Part shown: one piece after another, positions 1 through 35,773 of the stretch
How positions within the stretch are numbered: position 1 is the first letter of the stretch
How the letters are laid out: every line of letters starts with the position of its first letter
Assembly: GCF_025791835.1 (NCBI RefSeq)
Contig: NZ_JAOXLP010000030.1
Location: forward strand, 1 to 42,683
DNA from: Roseomonas xinghualingensis
Lineage (GTDB): Bacteria > Pseudomonadota > Alphaproteobacteria > Acetobacterales > Acetobacteraceae
Direction: 5' to 3'
DNA length: 42,683 nucleotides
Notes under the pieces: model-generated
Databases searched by the model: none
Seen by the model: only the letters and a program-made list of their open reading frames with translations
Told to the model about the DNA's origin: nothing
Translations under genes and position numbers: made by a program

Positions 1-333
1 CAGCTCTATGCGGAACTACCGCCCATCGCGCTCCGCGAGGGCGTTGTCGCGTACTGCCTGGACGGCCGCGGCGGCCTGCCCTGCTGGGCCTGGGTGCGCG
101 CCGGTCAGTGGTGCCTGCTCAACAGCGAGACACCGGTGTCCACCATCCCGGGCGCGCTTGGCCTGCCGGTAACCCACCCGCTGGATCCGGACTTCGCCCG
201 TAGCAACGAGCCAGCTCTTCGCGTCACCGCCCGGTGGTTTGAGCCGGCCCTTCGCATCAGTGCCCGCGCCCGGCGCGGCTTTCTTTCGGATAACGGCAGC
301 CCCGGGCGGGCCATGCTGGGAGCGCGCGCATGA
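1..333 (+). CDS. Phage structural protein, C-terminal part (5' end outside window)
   Basis: An open frame runs from the first base of the window to TGA at 331-333, so this is the last 110 codons of a longer gene. I do not recognise a family. The visible part is rich in Trp, Arg and Leu and ends in a basic stretch. The next gene starts at ATG 330, overlapping the stop codon (ATGA), so the two are probably translationally coupled in a late phage operon. A tail or baseplate role is inferred only from its position upstream of the tail-like and lysis genes. Confidence 0.6.
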   Translation, partial: QLYAELPPIALREGVVAYCLDGRGGLPCWAWVRAGQWCLLNSETPVSTIPGALGLPVTHPLDPDFARSNEPALRVTARWFEPALRISARARRGFLSDNGSPGRAMLGARA

Positions 334-1610
334 AGATCGAGCGCCTCGATCGCCTCGTCACCTATTCCCGCGCCGATCGGGCGATCCATTGGGATGAGGG
401 TGGACTGCCGCTGAGCCACGCGGCCAACGTCCTGCCCTACGAGTATAGCTTGGCCTCGCCCTACGAACTGCTCGGCTGGCCCTGCTTCGATGAGCTGGTG
501 AACTGCATCCGCAACCCGCTGGGGGTTCCCTCCGGCGGTGCGGGGAGTGCGCCGGTCAACGTCAGCACCTCCATCAACGCCGGCGGGCCGAGTGTGTCGT
601 GGCTCGGGCCCATGACCGTTGACGGCATCGAGGGATGGGGCTTCGCGCTCGGCGGCACGTCAACCGCCGTCGGAACGGTCCAGATCCTGCTGGAGGCGGC
701 CAATGTCGTCACCCAGCCGAGCTCCTACAGCGCGGCGGACGGGCTGGCGCTGGGCTTCTACACCAAGCTGCTGGGAGGCTCGACCGCCCTGCTCAGCAGC
801 CATGGCACGCGCATTTCCGAGTATAATGCCGAGAACTCCAGCATCGCGACGGGTTCCCAGACCGGCCTGGCGCTGCCGACGGCGGAGCCGGCGGTGGATC
901 AGTACCGGGAGCAGAGCCGGGTTGGCACGCTCAGCGGCAGTGCGGCCTACGCGCGTCCTATCCTGCAATGGGGTTGCCAGATCGGCACCCATGATGCGCA
1001 GATCTTCATCGGTGCTCCCCGTTTCCGGCCCGCCAATCAGCCGGCCGGCATCGTCCTGCCGGCGGCCGGCACGGTCGCCAACTCCCACCGACGCGCCGGC
1101 CTGCTGGCCTACGCGCCCCGCTACGTGGCCAGCCAGCTGAACCCTCTTGGCGGCATGACCTGGGTCGAGTTCCTGGTCTCCGGCGTCGCCTCGAAGGACC
1201 GGGTCATCGTCCAGCGCGACGATGGCACGGATGCCAGCCGTGTGGCGCTGGTGATCCCGGCCGGCACGCTGCAGGTCGAGGCGCGCGCCTATGTCGGCGG
1301 GGTGCTGGTGGGTGTGACGGGACGGGTCGGCACGATCACCCCGGGCGTGGTCTCCCGCGCCGGCCTGCGCGCCGTGCCGGCCCGCGTGGCGGGGAACATC
1401 GCGAGCCAGATAGGTGTGTGCCTGGACGGCGGCGAGATCCAGTCCGTGGCATGCGCCCTGCCGACCTGCACCGCCCGCCTGGTCGGCCGCGCCCGCGCGC
1501 CAGGGGCGGCGCTGGATGGGTGGGTGCAGGACACTGGCGAGTTCAACCTGCGCGTGGGCGACGGCGACTTCCGCCGGTTCAGCGTGGCGGGCACCGAGGT
1601 CGCCCAGTAG
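330..1610 (+). CDS. Phage tail/appendage-like protein, function unassigned
   Basis: A 426-residue protein starting at ATG 330 inside the stop of the previous gene. It has no signal peptide or membrane segment. The middle is rich in Gly, Ser, Thr and Ala with alternating hydrophobic residues, as expected of a beta-rich structural protein, and the C-terminal third (about 270-426) looks like one or two compact beta domains. I could not assign a named family. Its place directly before the membrane and lysis genes fits a distal tail or receptor-contact protein. That role is an inference; the coding call is firm because of length, codon use and coupling to the gene before it. Confidence 0.7.
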   Translation: MKIERLDRLVTYSRADRAIHWDEGGLPLSHAANVLPYEYSLASPYELLGWPCFDELVNCIRNPLGVPSGGAGSAPVNVSTSINAGGPSVSWLGPMTVDGIEGWGFALGGTSTAVGTVQILLEAANVVTQPSSYSAADGLALGFYTKLLGGSTALLSSHGTRISEYNAENSSIATGSQTGLALPTAEPAVDQYREQSRVGTLSGSAAYARPILQWGCQIGTHDAQIFIGAPRFRPANQPAGIVLPAAGTVANSHRRAGLLAYAPRYVASQLNPLGGMTWVEFLVSGVASKDRVIVQRDDGTDASRVALVIPAGTLQVEARAYVGGVLVGVTGRVGTITPGVVSRAGLRAVPARVAGNIASQIGVCLDGGEIQSVACALPTCTARLVGRARAPGAALDGWVQDTGEFNLRVGDGDFRRFSVAGTEVAQ

Positions 1611-1632: not shown

Positions 1633-2157
1633 ATGACCAAGACGAGCGAACCAGCCCGGGGGCCATCGCCATGGCTGTCCCCGGCAATCACGCTGGCCGG
1701 CATGGCGCTGACCATCGGACTCCTGCTGATCGGCGTGGGCCGTGACAGCGGCACCATGGCGGGGCGGCTGGATGCGCTGCAGGGCGAGATCCAGCTGGTG
1801 AAGTCCAGCCTCTCCAGCCTCGATGCCAGCATGAAGGCCGCCCGCAGCGAGCAGCGCACCGATATGGAGCGGCTTGCCAGCACGGTCACCAGCCTGGACC
1901 GCCGGGTGATTGAGGTCGACGCCACTCAGCGTGCCTCCGACCGCCGCTGGGAAGAGACCAACCGCATCCAGGACGATCGGCAGCGCGTCATGGGCGACAT
2001 CCTGACCGCCATGCGGGACGAGTTTGTCCGCAACGGCCTCCGGCTCTCCCCGCCGCAGCGGCGGCAGAACGGCAGCATCCAGAGTGGTCCGCAGCCCCTC
2101 GACCTGCGCCCCGTCCGCTGGCTGGCGCCGCTCGAAGGAATCGTCGCGGCTCCCTGA
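1633..2157 (+). CDS. Small phage membrane protein with coiled coil (holin/XhlA-like candidate)
   Basis: A 174-residue protein; the ATG at 1633 is chosen because the longer frame upstream overlaps the tail gene. One hydrophobic segment lies near residues 17-35 (AITLAGMALTIGLLLIGVG). It is followed by a long charged heptad-like region (about 38-120) predicted to form a coiled coil, then a basic Pro-rich tail. One N-terminal membrane segment with a long coiled coil is seen in accessory holin-type proteins of lysis cassettes. The gene lies about 90 bp before another small membrane protein and just upstream of the spanins. No diagnostic motif is visible, so it could also be another phage membrane-associated protein. 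Confidence 0.55.
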   Translation: MTKTSEPARGPSPWLSPAITLAGMALTIGLLLIGVGRDSGTMAGRLDALQGEIQLVKSSLSSLDASMKAARSEQRTDMERLASTVTSLDRRVIEVDATQRASDRRWEETNRIQDDRQRVMGDILTAMRDEFVRNGLRLSPPQRRQNGSIQSGPQPLDLRPVRWLAPLEGIVAAP

Positions 2158-2247: not shown

Positions 2248-2736
2248 ATGCCCGAGCTGCTCTCCCTCCTGATCTCCTCCTTCGGCTCGGAGGCGATCGC
2301 CTATGTGGCCTCCGCCCTGGCCGGCATCGTCAGCGCGGCCGTGCTGGCGCTTCTGCGCGCCGGCTGGCGCAGCCTGGTGGCACGCGGCGCCCAGCAGCAG
2401 GCCGACGCGAACCGCACCACGCTTGGCCACCTGGCCGACTTCGCCGGCCGCGCCGCCAACCTGCTGAACCTGGCCGTGCTGGCGGATCCCGACGCCTCGG
2501 AGAAGATCAACCAGATCCTCGCCCAGCTGCGGGACGACATGGCGGCCGAGGCCCAGGGCAGCTTGGCCAAGATTGGCAGCGATGCCGCCGGCGCCGAGCG
2601 CCTGATCACCCGCATCGCTGCCGAGAAGCTGCCGGCCCAGGTGGCCGCCGTGGCGGCGGCTTCCGGGCAGGATCCGCAGGCCGCCGTGAAGGCGGCCGCC
2701 GAGAGCCTGCTGCGCGCCGCCGGCCTCTCCCGCTGA
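2248..2736 (+). CDS. Small phage membrane protein, holin candidate
   Basis: A 162-residue protein starting at ATG 2248. Residues about 15-42 form one long hydrophobic segment (AIAYVASALAGIVSAAVLALL), followed by a basic WRSLVAR boundary and an Ala-rich helical domain. It sits directly upstream of the inner-membrane spanin, where many phages carry the holin. The endolysin downstream has no export signal, so a pore-forming partner is required, and this protein and the one encoded at 1633-2157 are the only candidates in the window. At 162 residues it is longer than most holins (60-140), so the assignment is tentative. Confidence 0.5.
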   Translation: MPELLSLLISSFGSEAIAYVASALAGIVSAAVLALLRAGWRSLVARGAQQQADANRTTLGHLADFAGRAANLLNLAVLADPDASEKINQILAQLRDDMAAEAQGSLAKIGSDAAGAERLITRIAAEKLPAQVAAVAAASGQDPQAAVKAAAESLLRAAGLSR

Positions 2737-2746
2737 GGGGGCGGCG

Positions 2747-3169
2747 GTGACCGTCCCGGCCGCCCTGGTCCTGCGCTGGGGCTCGGTCGCTCTGGTCGTG
2801 TTCGGCCTGGCGGTCGCCCTGCTCTGGTACCGGGCGGAAGCGACCAGGGCGCGGGCCGACGCGGCCCAGCATGCCGCCGCCCTGGCCGCCGGCCAGGCCG
2901 CGCTGGCCGAGCTGCGCGCCAGTGCCGCGCGCAACGAGGCCGCCCTGACCGCCGATGCCCAGGCCCTGCGGGCGCGGGCGGAGGCGAGCGCCGCCACCAG
3001 GAGAATCATCCATGCCGCCGCACCCTCGGCCGCCTGCCTGGCGAGCCCTGCTGTTGCTGCTGCCCTTCGCAGCCTGCGCGGCACCGGCGCCGCAGATCCA
3101 GCTGCAGCGCCTCTCGGTCCCGGCCGGCCTGCTGGCCTGCCAGGCACAGCCGGAGCCGCCCCTCGATAG
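2747..3169 (+). CDS. Inner-membrane spanin (Rz-like)
   Basis: A 140-residue protein starting at GTG 2747, ten bases after the previous stop. An N-terminal membrane anchor (about residues 5-25, VALVVFGLAVALLWY) is followed by an Ala/Arg/Glu-rich helix (about 28-88) that should form a periplasmic coiled coil, and a Pro/Ala/Gly-rich tail. This is the layout of lambda Rz. A lipoprotein gene starts inside it in another frame (ATG 3012), the classic overlapping Rz/Rz1 arrangement. Spanins fuse the inner and outer membranes in the last step of lysis of Gram-negative hosts. Sequence is poorly conserved in this family, so the call rests on topology and the nested partner. Confidence 0.75.
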   Translation: MTVPAALVLRWGSVALVVFGLAVALLWYRAEATRARADAAQHAAALAAGQAALAELRASAARNEAALTADAQALRARAEASAATRRIIHAAAPSAACLASPAVAAALRSLRGTGAADPAAAPLGPGRPAGLPGTAGAAPR

Positions 3170-3287
3170 CGCCGATGACGCCGACCTCGCGGGCTGGGTG
3201 CTCGACCTGGCCGAGGCCGGCGCGGACTGCCGCGCGAAGCTCGAGCGCGTGCGCGACCTGGTCGCGGCGCAAGCCGCGCACCCCTGA
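3012..3287 (+). CDS. Outer-membrane lipoprotein spanin (Rz1-like), nested in Rz
   Basis: A 91-residue protein starting at ATG 3012, in a different frame and overlapping the Rz-like gene by 158 bases before running 118 bases past it. The N-terminus is a lipoprotein signal peptide: a basic start, LLLLL, then a lipobox-like LPFAAC with Cys about residue 21 as the expected lipid site. The mature part is short with several Pro residues (APAPQ, QPEPP) and a C-terminal charged helix. Together with the inner-membrane spanin it should span the periplasm. The lipobox placed after a Leu run, plus the overlap, make this call firm. Confidence 0.75.
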   Translation: MPPHPRPPAWRALLLLLPFAACAAPAPQIQLQRLSVPAGLLACQAQPEPPLDSADDADLAGWVLDLAEAGADCRAKLERVRDLVAAQAAHP

Positions 3288-3310: not shown

Positions 3311-4510
3311 GTGATCCTGCTTCCCAACCTGCAGAAGTACGACCCCTATTTCGGCTATGCGCGCGGCACGACCGGCGGTGACGGTGGCACGCTCCACACC
3401 TGCACCTCCGCCCAGCAGATCGCGGACGTGCTGAAGGCCAAGAAGCCCGACGACAAGGCCATCATCTACATCCCCGGCCTTCTCGACGCGGGCAAGTTCA
3501 GCGATGTCGAGGTGAAGGGGCAGAAGAACATCACCTTCGTCGGTGACGGCCGCTCGACCTCTATGGTCGGCATCGGGCTCAAGCTGGTTGCCGCCGAGAA
3601 CATCATCCTCTTCAACCTGTCCATCGGCCGGGTGAACCGTGGCCCGAAGGATGCGATCGGCATGGAGACCGATTGCCGCCGCATCGTTGCCCTGCATTGC
3701 GACCTCTACGGGGACATGAAGGCCGGCAAGGATACCTATGACGGCCTGTTCGACGGCAAGCGCGGGACGCAGGAATACGCGATCGTGCTCTGCGACGTGC
3801 ACGACCACCACAAGGCGCTGCTGCAGGGCTACAGCGACGGCGACACCAAGCCGGACAATGACCGCTACTTCTCGGCCATCCTGAACCGCTTCCGCCATTG
3901 CGGCTCGCGCCTGCCCTCCATCCGCTTTGGATTCGCGCATGTGTTCGGCAATCTCTACGAGGACATCGAGACCAGCGGCGTGAACTGCCGCATGGGCGCG
4001 CAGGTCTGCGTGGAGCTGAACACCTTCCGGCGCGTGAAGAACCCGGTTGTGGCGATCGACAGCGACTTGCCGGGCTTCTGGAACCTGATCGACAACGAGT
4101 TCCAGGACTGCGAGTACAGCAAGCTCGGCAAGGGCGAGGCGAGCGCGGCGGACGGTCAGCCCACCTGCAGCTTCCGCCCGCCCTACACCCTGCCGCCGCT
4201 GTCCCGGACGCAGTGCCTGGAGCTGGTGCAGCACGCCGGCCTGATCACTGCTGACACCGTGCCGCTGCCCGGCTTGTCCGATGAGCATGCGCCGCAGCCG
4301 GAGCCTCCTCCGTTCGTGCCGCAGCCCTCCGAGCCGGAGCCCGCCGAGCCGCCGCAGGAGACGCCGGCCGAGGGCCCCTCGCTGCTGGAGCGGGTGACGG
4401 CGCTGGTCGTGGATCTGCAGGGCCTGCCGGCAAGCCCCGAGCGGGATGCCGCGGTCATGCGGGCGCGGGAGACCCGCTTCTGGGTGAAGGAGGCCTCGGC
4501 CGAGGCATGA
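3311..4510 (+). CDS. Phage-encoded pectate-lyase-like protein (PL1 beta-helix) with Pro-rich tail
   Basis: A 399-residue protein starting at GTG 3311 behind GGAGCG. Residues about 10-275 read as a right-handed parallel beta-helix of polysaccharide lyase family 1. The conserved calcium-region block TYDGLFD lies at 143-149, HDHHKALLQG at 164-173 (Lys168), and the catalytic-type motif SRLPSIRFG at 199-207, with Arg200 and Arg205 matching the family pattern RxPxxRxG. After about residue 285 comes a Pro/Glu-rich linker (about 318-355) and a short helical end. There is no signal peptide. The gene lies between the spanins and the endolysin and overlaps the endolysin start (ATGA, 4507-4510). PL1 enzymes cleave polygalacturonate by beta-elimination; here it may act as a virion depolymerase or a cargo gene. 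Fold and motifs are seen; substrate and role are inferred. Confidence 0.75.
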   Translation: MILLPNLQKYDPYFGYARGTTGGDGGTLHTCTSAQQIADVLKAKKPDDKAIIYIPGLLDAGKFSDVEVKGQKNITFVGDGRSTSMVGIGLKLVAAENIILFNLSIGRVNRGPKDAIGMETDCRRIVALHCDLYGDMKAGKDTYDGLFDGKRGTQEYAIVLCDVHDHHKALLQGYSDGDTKPDNDRYFSAILNRFRHCGSRLPSIRFGFAHVFGNLYEDIETSGVNCRMGAQVCVELNTFRRVKNPVVAIDSDLPGFWNLIDNEFQDCEYSKLGKGEASAADGQPTCSFRPPYTLPPLSRTQCLELVQHAGLITADTVPLPGLSDEHAPQPEPPPFVPQPSEPEPAEPPQETPAEGPSLLERVTALVVDLQGLPASPERDAAVMRARETRFWVKEASAEA

Positions 4511-5316
4511 GCGAGGTCCTGGTGCGGGGGCTCACCCCCGCAGACCGCGCCCGCGCCGCCATGGCGCTGGGCGTGGATGTCCCCACCGTGCAGACGGTGC
4601 TGACCGTCGAGACCGGCAATGCCGGCGGCTTCCTCGCCGACGGCCGCCCCAGGATCCTGCTGGAGGCGCACCTCTTCAGCCGGGCCACCAAGCGCCGCTG
4701 GGATGCCTCGTATCCCAAGATCTCGGCCCAACCCTGGGATCGCCGGCTCTATGTCGGCGGGGCAGGGGAGTGGCGCCGCCTAGACCAGGCCATCGCCCTG
4801 GACCGGACGGCGGCGTTGCGCAGCTGCTCCTGGGGCCTGGCGCAGATCCTGGGCTCGAATTTCGGCGCCTGCGGCTTTGACGATGTGGAGGCCTTCGTGG
4901 CCGCCATGTCGGAGAGCGAGGGGCGGCAGTTGGACGCCTTCGTGGCCTTCATCATCCACGAGGGGCTGGCGCCGCTGCTGCGGGCCCGGGCCTGGGCAGC
5001 CTTCGCCCGCCGCTACAATGGGCCGGGCTACGCCCAGAACGCCTATGACCAGAAGCTCGCAGCCGTGTATGCCGAGCTGGCCGGCAGGCCGGCGCCGCAC
5101 CTGCCCATCGTCGGCATGCTGCGAATCGGCATGCGGGGCGAGGCGATCCGCCGCCTGCAGGAAGCGCTGAACCGAGGGGCCAACCGGCCCCCCATCCTGG
5201 TGGACGGCATCTTCGGGCGCAGCACCGAGATCGCGGTCCAGCAGTTCCAGGCCGCGCGCGAGCTGGATGTGGACGGCGTGGTGGGGCCTGTCACGGCAAA
5301 GGCCCTGAAGCTTTAG
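4507..5316 (+). CDS. Endolysin: N-acetylmuramidase domain plus peptidoglycan-binding domain
   Basis: A 269-residue protein, ATG 4507 overlapping the previous stop. Residues about 10-190 match the phage N-acetylmuramidase domain (DUF3380 type): a likely catalytic Glu35 in VLTVETGNAGGF, the following ILLEAHLFSR (50-59), a SCSWGLAQILG block (106-116) and the RRYNGPGY motif (168-175). Residues about 203-266 are a PG_binding_1 repeat (IGMRGEAIRRLQEALN and VDGIFGRSTEIAVQQFQ). It should cut the glycan backbone of the host wall. It has no signal peptide or SAR anchor, so release depends on a holin. It is the last gene of the late lysis block and is followed by 190 bases without a gene. Confidence 0.85.
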   Translation: MSEVLVRGLTPADRARAAMALGVDVPTVQTVLTVETGNAGGFLADGRPRILLEAHLFSRATKRRWDASYPKISAQPWDRRLYVGGAGEWRRLDQAIALDRTAALRSCSWGLAQILGSNFGACGFDDVEAFVAAMSESEGRQLDAFVAFIIHEGLAPLLRARAWAAFARRYNGPGYAQNAYDQKLAAVYAELAGRPAPHLPIVGMLRIGMRGEAIRRLQEALNRGANRPPILVDGIFGRSTEIAVQQFQAARELDVDGVVGPVTAKALKL

Positions 5317-5506: not shown

Positions 5507-6322
5507 ATGGTGTCCACCCTCCTGCCGGCTTCGCCGGCGGCGCCGCCCGCAGCTTACCTGGGCGGCAAGAAGAACCTGGCGCGGCGAATCATCGCCCGCC
5601 TCGGTGCCATCCCCCACACCACCTATGTCGAGCCTTTCATTGGCATGGGCGGCATTTTCCTCCGTCGCCCCTTCCGGGCGAAGGCGGAGGTGATCAACGA
5701 CATCAGCACCGATGTCGCGAACCTCTTCCGGATCCTGCAGCGCCACTACGTGCCGCTGATGGACATGCTCCGCTGGCAGCTCACCAGCCGCGCCGAGTGG
5801 GACCGCCTGAAGGCGGCCAATGCCGACACCCTGACTGACCTCGAGCGCGCGGCCCGCTTCCTCTACCTGCAGCGCCTGGCCTTCGGCGGGAAGGTGTCCG
5901 GCCGGAACTTCGGCGTGGATCCGGCAACGCCCGCCCGATTCGACGTGGCGAAGCTCGGGGGCGTGCTGGAGGAGGTGCACGAGCGGCTGTCGGGCGTGGT
6001 GATCGAGCGGCTACCCTACAGCCAGCTGCTGCCCCGCTACGACCGGCCGGGCACCCTCTTCTACCTCGATCCGCCCTACTGGGGCTGCGAGAACGACTAT
6101 GGAGAGGGGGTTTTCAGCCGCGAGGACTTCGAGCGCTTGGCGGATCTGCTGGCGGGTCTGAAGGGCCGCTTCCTCCTGTCCCTCAACGACACGCCAGGTG
6201 TCCGGCAGGTCTTCAGCCGCTTCGCGATCGAGGAGGTGGAGGTGACCTACTCAGTCGGCCAGCACGCCGGACGTCGGCCGCCTGCTCGCGAGGTCCTCAT
6301 CTCCGGCCCGATGGCCGGCTGA
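5507..6322 (+). CDS. Orphan DNA adenine methylase (D12 class N6 methyltransferase)
   Basis: A 271-residue protein, start ATG 5507. The SAM-binding region has YLGGKK (17-22) and the motif-I-like YVEPFIGMGG (40-49); the catalytic motif DPPYWG is at 188-193. This order (motif I before DPPY) is that of Dam-like alpha-group adenine methylases. No restriction endonuclease is beside it, so it is an orphan methylase. It stands alone between the lysis genes and the attachment site, which suggests a prophage gene for protecting phage DNA from restriction or altering host methylation; the target sequence cannot be read from the gene. The segment 5317-5506 upstream has no convincing coding frame, only a GC palindrome near 5468-5486. 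Confidence 0.85.
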   Translation: MVSTLLPASPAAPPAAYLGGKKNLARRIIARLGAIPHTTYVEPFIGMGGIFLRRPFRAKAEVINDISTDVANLFRILQRHYVPLMDMLRWQLTSRAEWDRLKAANADTLTDLERAARFLYLQRLAFGGKVSGRNFGVDPATPARFDVAKLGGVLEEVHERLSGVVIERLPYSQLLPRYDRPGTLFYLDPPYWGCENDYGEGVFSREDFERLADLLAGLKGRFLLSLNDTPGVRQVFSRFAIEEVEVTYSVGQHAGRRPPAREVLISGPMAG

Positions 6323-6343: not shown

Positions 6344-6380
6344 AGCCCCCCGGTGGAAATCCCACCGGGGGGCTTTTTTT
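6344..6380 (+). terminator. Rho-independent terminator after the methylase gene
   Basis: A 13-bp perfect stem (6344-6356 with 6362-6374, rich in G and C) with the five-base loop AAATC is followed directly by a run of T to 6380. It lies 22 bases after the methylase stop and would end prophage transcription before the chromosomal transporter operon. Confidence 0.93.
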
Positions 6381-6575: not shown

Positions 6576-6620
6576 CTGGGGGACTGGGGGTCGTGGGTTC
6601 GAATCCCGCCGCTCCGACCA
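6576..6620 (+). other. Prophage attachment site: 3' half of a tRNA-Pro(GGG) gene
   Basis: The sequence from 6576 reads as the anticodon loop CTGGGGG (anticodon GGG), the 3' anticodon stem ACTGG, a variable loop, a complete T arm (GTGGG, TTCGAAT, CCCGC at 6593-6609), the 3' acceptor strand CGCTCCG (6610-6616), discriminator A and CCA. The required 5' parts are absent: the five bases before the loop (AACGC) do not pair with ACTGG and no CGGAGCG acceptor strand lies upstream. This is the displaced half left when a phage integrates into the anticodon-loop region and restores the tRNA at its other end, which would lie beyond the left edge of the window. Confidence 0.85.
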
Positions 6621-35680: not shown

Positions 35681-35773
35681 GGAGGGGTGGCCGAGTGGCC
35701 GAAGGCGGCGGTTTGCTAAACCGTTATAGGATGTCAAGTCCTATCGTGGGTTCGAATCCCATCCCCTCCGCCA
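35681..35773 (+). tRNA. tRNA-Ser (anticodon GCU)
   Basis: A 93-base class II tRNA. The acceptor stem GGAGGGG (35681-35687) pairs with CCCCTCC (35763-35769), followed by G and the encoded CCA. The anticodon loop is TTGCTAA within GGTTTGCTAAACC, giving anticodon GCT, and a long variable arm is present (ATAGGATGTCAAGTCCTAT), the mark of serine tRNAs. The T loop is TTCGAAT. Everything to its right in the window is accessory and IS-rich. Confidence 0.97.

Follow-up and report, generated by a model that had tools for sequence, protein, structure and literature searches.

The 42,683-nucleotide stretch analysed here (the window) is contig NZ_JAOXLP010000030.1, numbered C53 among the 132 contigs of the 4.88 Mb draft genome of Roseomonas xinghualingensis (G000), and it carries, within the lysis genes of a prophage, a gene for an enzyme of the pectate lyase family PL1 (3311..4510, forward strand). 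We favour the reading that this enzyme is a soluble lyase of the lysis operon which, freed when the cell bursts, would cut a uronate capsule of the host. An earlier, sequence-only reading had offered several roles for the gene, and the one that gained most from the analysis is that of a cargo enzyme that lysis sets free and that acts on a polyuronate capsule of the host.

The identification as a PL1 beta-helix enzyme was borne out. The 399-residue protein scores 61 bits against the PF00544 profile (curated cut-off 24), and its structural model, compared with solved lyases as had been proposed, forms the right-handed parallel beta-helix of PelC-type enzymes, aligning over residues 9-319; the nearest solved structures are pectate lyases (7xks, 3vmv and PelC, 2pec). 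The catalytic Arg and Lys and the calcium-binding Asp residues named beforehand are invariant across an alignment of ten PL1 proteins. R200 corresponds to Arg279 of B. subtilis Pel if an ungapped alignment is assumed, and the other catalytic and calcium residues presumably have their customary roles. The protein would be expected to cut a uronate polymer by calcium-dependent beta-elimination. With the pectate lyases it shares the fold, the catalytic Arg and Lys and the calcium-region Asp residues; it differs from them in being a phage lysis gene product with a predicted substrate, in having no visible signal, and in its C-terminus, where the lyase domain (approximately residues 10-320) is followed by a Pro-rich linker (approximately 322-352) and a helical hairpin (approximately 358-398). 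A hydropathy scan of four phage PL1 proteins (those of the window, C73, L041 and L042, described below) detected no hydrophobic N-terminal segment, and the window protein carries no RTX tail. Among named organisms, the closest relative found for the gene is in Roseomonas harenae.

The gene lies in the right end of a prophage that spans bases 1 to approximately 6,620, beyond which the translations, judged by eye, are those of chromosomal transport genes. The left part of the prophage is absent from the contig. Another contig of the same genome, C73, has the same starting point (95% identity), so the assembly probably broke at a repeat. In order along the forward strand, the features are:

330..1610, forward: tail-type phage protein, first prophage gene in the contig (95.3% DNA identity to a second prophage, on G000:C73, over 1,595 columns)
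1702..2157, forward: coiled-coil protein with one transmembrane (hydrophobic) segment, a lysis-region gene
2248..2736, forward: putative holin, a candidate from one hydrophobic segment and its position
2747..3169, forward: Rz-like i-spanin (phrog_214, 5.2e-7; N-terminal hydrophobic segment)
3012..3287, forward: Rz1-like lipoprotein o-spanin, out of frame inside Rz (phrog_456, 2.3e-5)
3311..4510, forward: PL1 pectate-lyase-family enzyme (profile, structure and alignment matches)
4507..4510, forward: ATGA overlap of the PL1 stop and the endolysin start, read from the sequence
4507..5316, forward: endolysin, N-acetylmuramidase with peptidoglycan-binding domain (PF11860, 8.4e-60; PF01471, 6.8e-14)
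5507..6322, forward: D12-class DNA adenine methylase, at the prophage end (PF02086, 4.3e-20; phrog_56, 8.8e-82)
6345..6378, forward: terminator-like hairpin followed by a T run, by eye
6597..6620, forward: 3' remnant of a tRNA gene (T arm, acceptor, CCA), read from the sequence

The placement between the Rz/Rz1 spanins and the endolysin, overlapping the endolysin start, is therefore as the sequence-only reading had described it, and PL1 shares its strand and gene run with the holin candidate and the endolysin. Strand, gene run and endolysin overlap are likewise shared in C73 and in two contigs from the IMG/VR collection, L041 and L042. G000 contains six PL1 places, one of which (C73:3031-4071, 60% identity to the window PL1) belongs to the second prophage, where the same tail gene is followed by different lysis-region genes, PL1 and a Phage_lysozyme (PF00959) endolysin. 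Among the 2.9 million contigs of IMG/VR, the window protein alone as query found no relative, while a profile built from ten PL1 proteins found three contigs (L041, L042 and L043); a second profile scan returned the same three, as did a scan with a holin-candidate profile. PL1 follows a holin candidate (phrog_1544, unknown function) in all three, and one of these candidates also weakly matches the holin family phrog_3427 (0.003). L041 and L042 have a GH108 endolysin after PL1; L043 ends within PL1.

Five phage copies of the gene, four whole and one cut by a contig end, were thus available for comparison, and the four with the next gene present adjoin three types of endolysin (PF11860, PF00959 and GH108). 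The PL1 stop overlaps the endolysin start in 4/4 readable junctions, and 2 to 23 bases precede the PL1 gene in the five phages. As to the proposed search for the same gene order, the order holin candidate, PL1, endolysin recurs in C73, L041 and L042, and no endolysin neighbour was visible by eye at the PL1 places outside G000 in the family scan. The holin candidates of L043 and C73 are 86% identical, which makes a shared type of host probable for these phages. A tailspike gene misplaced by assembly error, which the earlier reading had held open, is spoken against by a position common to five copies and three endolysin types, and we ruled it out given that the arrangement recurs in contigs from other samples.

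The C-terminal tail bears on another explanation, in which the enzyme is a virion-borne depolymerase, attached through its hairpin to the tail or baseplate, so that the capsule is opened at entry. According to PMC6966330, phage depolymerases frequently belong to the structure of the virion, for instance as tailspikes, and a Pro-rich, possibly docking, tail is present in 5/5 phage PL1s and missing from the two closest chromosomal copies. The window and L043 tails have no Pfam match, two other phage tails have only matches below the cut-off (DprA_N, 0.16; SEC-C, 0.097), and tblastn of the tail and hairpin against the phage collection found none. However, the window PL1 has no particle-binding domain N-terminal to the beta-helix, its match to solved lyases beginning at residue 9-18, and pectate lyases are described as monomeric in PMC7949094. 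The gene lies outside the tail module, after the holin candidate and coupled with the endolysin gene, and L043, which has a baseplate gene (phrog_120), has a tail region that by eye is unlike that of L041 and L042. Furthermore, ahead of the lysis region L041-L043 carry other, large genes that by size and place may encode tail fibres; one of them has an esterase domain. We consider a virion-borne role unlikely. A SASA carbohydrate esterase domain is found in large late genes both of a PL1 phage (L043 4730-7237) and of a phage without PL1 (L069 3175-5445); such proteins may deacetylate capsule at entry.

Related lysis cassettes lack the gene. Prophage G006, whose genome has no PL1 match, is related to the window prophage in its endolysin (82.8% DNA identity over 787 columns) and in its methylase (86.0% over 959 columns); its gene in the holin place ends at the endolysin start, with neither spanins nor PL1 between. 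In a third cassette, at the opposite end of C73, the lysozyme gene and the one preceding it touch and PL1 is again missing, and no PL1 was seen by eye in the lysis region of prophage G163, found via the tail gene. Because the preceding gene touches the endolysin in sister cassettes, we read PL1 as an accessory that slots in immediately ahead of the endolysin and becomes its overlapping neighbour. The third cassette belongs to a second prophage end (L017 13708-18737) that lies in opposite orientation in the same 18.8-kb contig and comprises an integrase, a methylase and a HicB-like gene (by eye), then Phage_lysozyme and a gene in the holin place. The G006 prophage has a HicA/HicB-like pair (by eye; L069 10080-10741) between endolysin and methylase, and C73 has a HicB-like gene in the same slot (L017 4822-5226).

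Absence from sister cassettes is also what a decaying passenger or a functionless chance insertion would give. Selection was estimated as the ratio of non-synonymous to synonymous substitution rates (dN/dS, NG86). The ratio is 0.32 for both L042/L043 and L041/L043 and 0.11 for the two closest chromosomal copies; for the window and C73 it is 0.62, which is weak evidence of constraint and favours the passenger explanation. Against it stand the four whole copies and one contig-cut copy in the same slot, with three endolysin types and the catalytic residues kept, and we find it scarcely credible.

A tree of 15 PL1 sequences, which does not include the RTX-PL1s of G001:C10, G010 and G384, splits the RTX-type chromosomal enzymes from a second group with 100/100 support. 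This second group consists of the five phage copies and two chromosomal copies without RTX repeats (C88 and G008), which sit between the phage pairs when the RTX enzymes serve as outgroup (94/96, just below the strict threshold). Either phages acquired a host gene more than once, or the C88 and G008 copies came from phages. The non-RTX chromosomal genes inside the phage PL1 group (L018 1084-2043 and L022 8370-9329) encode no Pro-rich tail, and are perhaps phage genes taken into a capsule locus.

The likely target of the enzyme is suggested by the distribution of PL1 in host genomes. Within the genus, PL1 occurs in 4/15 genomes. KpsE-type proteins are present at 1e-20 in 15/15, whereas a close relative (46-100% identity) of the KpsE-type exporter on contig C38 is found in exactly the four PL1 genomes, the other 11 having only 27-32% relatives. 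With kinship ignored, so exact a coincidence has a chance of 1 in 1,365 (1 over 15 choose 4). In an rpoB tree of 14 of the 15 genomes (G011 was left out, its match being split), the four PL1 genomes do not form one clade, and two label changes suffice to place them. A scan of 397 genomes of the family at 1e-20 found PL1 in five; the only one beyond the genus, G384, also has the exporter (53%).

Gene neighbourhoods add to this picture. An RTX-PL1 lies 3 to 14 kb from a C38-type exporter in G008, G001, G010 and G384, and the G384 locus combines a NAD-dependent sugar epimerase, an ABC exporter, an enzyme of the UDP-glucose/GDP-mannose dehydrogenase family, a glycosyltransferase and the RTX-PL1. 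Next to the C88 copy in G000 lie a glycosyltransferase, another enzyme of the PL1 family (PF00544, 1.4e-8) and a dehydrogenase that comes closest to UDP-glucose 6-dehydrogenases. For the exporter parts, the KpsE, KpsM and Vi-export families of NCBIfam rank, under their curated cut-offs, and the nucleotide-sugar dehydrogenase near the RTX-PL1 of G001 is nearest to TviB of the Vi capsule, under the equivalog cut-off. Taken together, the exporter co-distribution, the capsule-type loci and the family ranks of dehydrogenases and exporter point to an exported capsule with uronic acid; its sugar may be galacturonate or an N-acetyl form thereof.

C-terminal RTX-type repeats were recognised by eye in the PL1 lyases of L019, L020, L021, L023-L029 and L109, and checked with Pfam in L109. 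There are several such enzymes per genome in G000 and G008, and four lie near the capsule exporter. The close KpsE exporter gene of G008 is split across two reading frames (L023, G008:C44, 12111-13345). At L022 50-3256, a 1,068-residue protein with no Pfam domain above cut-off adjoins a type I secretion ABC transporter and two lyase genes.

Plant pectin is another candidate substrate, and the gene could be a nutritional moron whose pectinase lets the lysogen population use it. The closest solved structures are pectate lyases, and among the 13 host PL1 genes of five genomes, four are near the exporter, C88 is in the dehydrogenase cluster, one (G008 C76) adjoins another lyase and a type I secretion system, and seven are by eye away from visible capsule genes (G000 C34, C41 and C45; G008 C43, C95 and C49; G001 C67), which keeps plant pectin from being set aside wholly. 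However, an enzyme with neither visible signal nor RTX tail is not expected to be exported by living lysogens, the gene sits inside a lysis operon, and some host PL1s are in capsule-type loci. A host capsule is favoured over pectin because the PL1 genomes of the genus are exactly those with the one capsule exporter, and we judge pectin cargo very improbable.

Several points weigh against release at lysis onto a host capsule, the reading that we prefer. Besides the weak constraint between the window and C73 copies and the seven host lyases away from capsule genes, the G000 exporter and the nearest host PL1 are on different contigs, and the match of exporter and PL1 amounts to less than four independent events, since two changes on the rpoB tree account for it. 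The composition of the capsule is deduced from gene families, and the epimerase, dehydrogenases and exporter parts all score below the NCBIfam equivalog cut-offs. The holin of each phage is a candidate by position, and the C-terminal hairpin could dock on the virion.

Under the preferred reading, the lyase would be made together with the lysis proteins from the late operon and, having no visible export signal, would build up in the cytoplasm beside the endolysin. After holin, endolysin and spanins had breached the inner membrane, the wall and the outer membrane respectively, it would be released with the burst at the cell surface, where it could cut the capsule uronate, most likely galacturonate, by calcium-dependent beta-elimination. 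Progeny would be freed from the capsule shell, and the capsules of neighbouring cells may be opened. The same release logic and location would serve a different benefit, the clearing of adsorption sites, in which stripping the capsule keeps progeny off debris and kin cells, in the manner of a receptor-destroying enzyme, or blocks rival phages. Capsule stripping by free tailspikes that blocks adsorption is discussed as a hypothesis in the available text of PMC6966330. Nothing indicates that the capsule is a receptor, and by sequence this benefit is inseparable from escape through the capsule; we think it quite unlikely. More generally, and with less assurance than for the window enzyme itself, we tentatively propose a lysis cassette with an added stage, in which a dedicated capsule lyase related to host capsule-locus lyases stands directly ahead of the endolysin and assumes the gene overlap with it, and the free enzyme strips the outermost polysaccharide at lysis; it may be a public good under selection in capsulated, spatially structured hosts.

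The arrangement appears to be rare, as the sequence-only reading had supposed. Searches of 50,697 phage records with tblastn found no match for the window PL1, the C73 PL1 or the RTX-PL1 of C34, and PHROGs gave none for the window or L041 PL1. In the viral fold library BFVD, none of the best 50 of 259 matches at E 10 was close (best TMq 0.39); a Dickeya phage fragment named pectate lyase family protein was among the matches listed (TMt 0.59). A class scan found PL1 in 1/385 genomes, the source genome itself, and 11 plasmid records hold distant PL1s (<=35.6% identity). G022 was rejected as a PL1 genome, its match (5.3e-4) covering residues 298-352 only and not being a lyase match. The contig and genome scans rely on exact peptide words or on a first look that is loose, and relatives may be missed. 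Literature searches gave no account of a lyase in a lysis cassette among the matches listed, and we do not claim its absence from print.

Regarding the neighbouring genes, the 330..1610 product has no Pfam or PHROG match of its own at E 0.1, and shows a 26% protein match to a protein of prophage G163 that is itself matched by tail PHROG 5939 and, more strongly, by PHROG 8610 (unknown function). The gene at 1702..2157 has 70.8% DNA identity over 329 columns to the equivalent place of prophage G006 and only weak family matches, such as Rz-like phrog_89 (0.04). The holin candidate has no family match above cut-off, with two weak Pfam matches (0.011 and 0.087) and none in PHROGs. Rz1 has a lipobox-like LPFAAC motif and matches LysC PF23793 under the cut-off (0.0042); this match and that to phrog_456 were both obtained with the longer reading 2955-3287. 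The tRNA remnant is a probable right attachment site. ARAGORN reported no whole tRNA there, and the only one in the window is a tRNA-Ser (GCT) gene at 35681-35773.

The VexL capsule depolymerase (6fi2) is a bacterial capsule-locus enzyme, unlike the phage lysis gene described here; its substrate we take to be Vi. Tailspike depolymerases with 'pectate lyase' domains are similar in their beta-helix and in cutting capsule, and differ in being virion proteins. The nearest functional precedent is PghP of Bacillus phage phiNIT1, which is seemingly no part of the virion, is released by the burst at the end of infection and is thought to be host-derived, with LevP beside it (PMC6966330, in part); PghP-like genes also occur in B. 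subtilis prophages (PMC4497714, in part). Both are phage-encoded like the window PL1, but they are unrelated enzymes of a Gram-positive host, and the available parts of these two accounts mention no placement beside an endolysin. The kind of function therefore has a precedent; the novelty lies in the enzyme family, in the host being Gram-negative and in the gene's fixed position within the lysis operon. A capsule enzyme freed at lysis has also been engineered, as a free K1 endosialidase in T7, and the engineered phage suffered a tragedy of the commons (PMC3564837, in part); that system is man-made, whereas the PL1 arrangement is natural and recurrent.

Accounts of phage lysis usually describe how membrane, wall and outer membrane are breached, and for capsulated hosts they normally treat the capsule as a matter of entry. 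With a lyase that recurs in the lysis operon, exit through the capsule becomes a genetic, testable question, and as a natural counterpart of the engineered free-enzyme T7 the arrangement raises the question of how such a public good is kept. For the host, the PL1 data suggest that Roseomonas-type bacteria make a uronate capsule, and they single out enzymes by which it may be cut.
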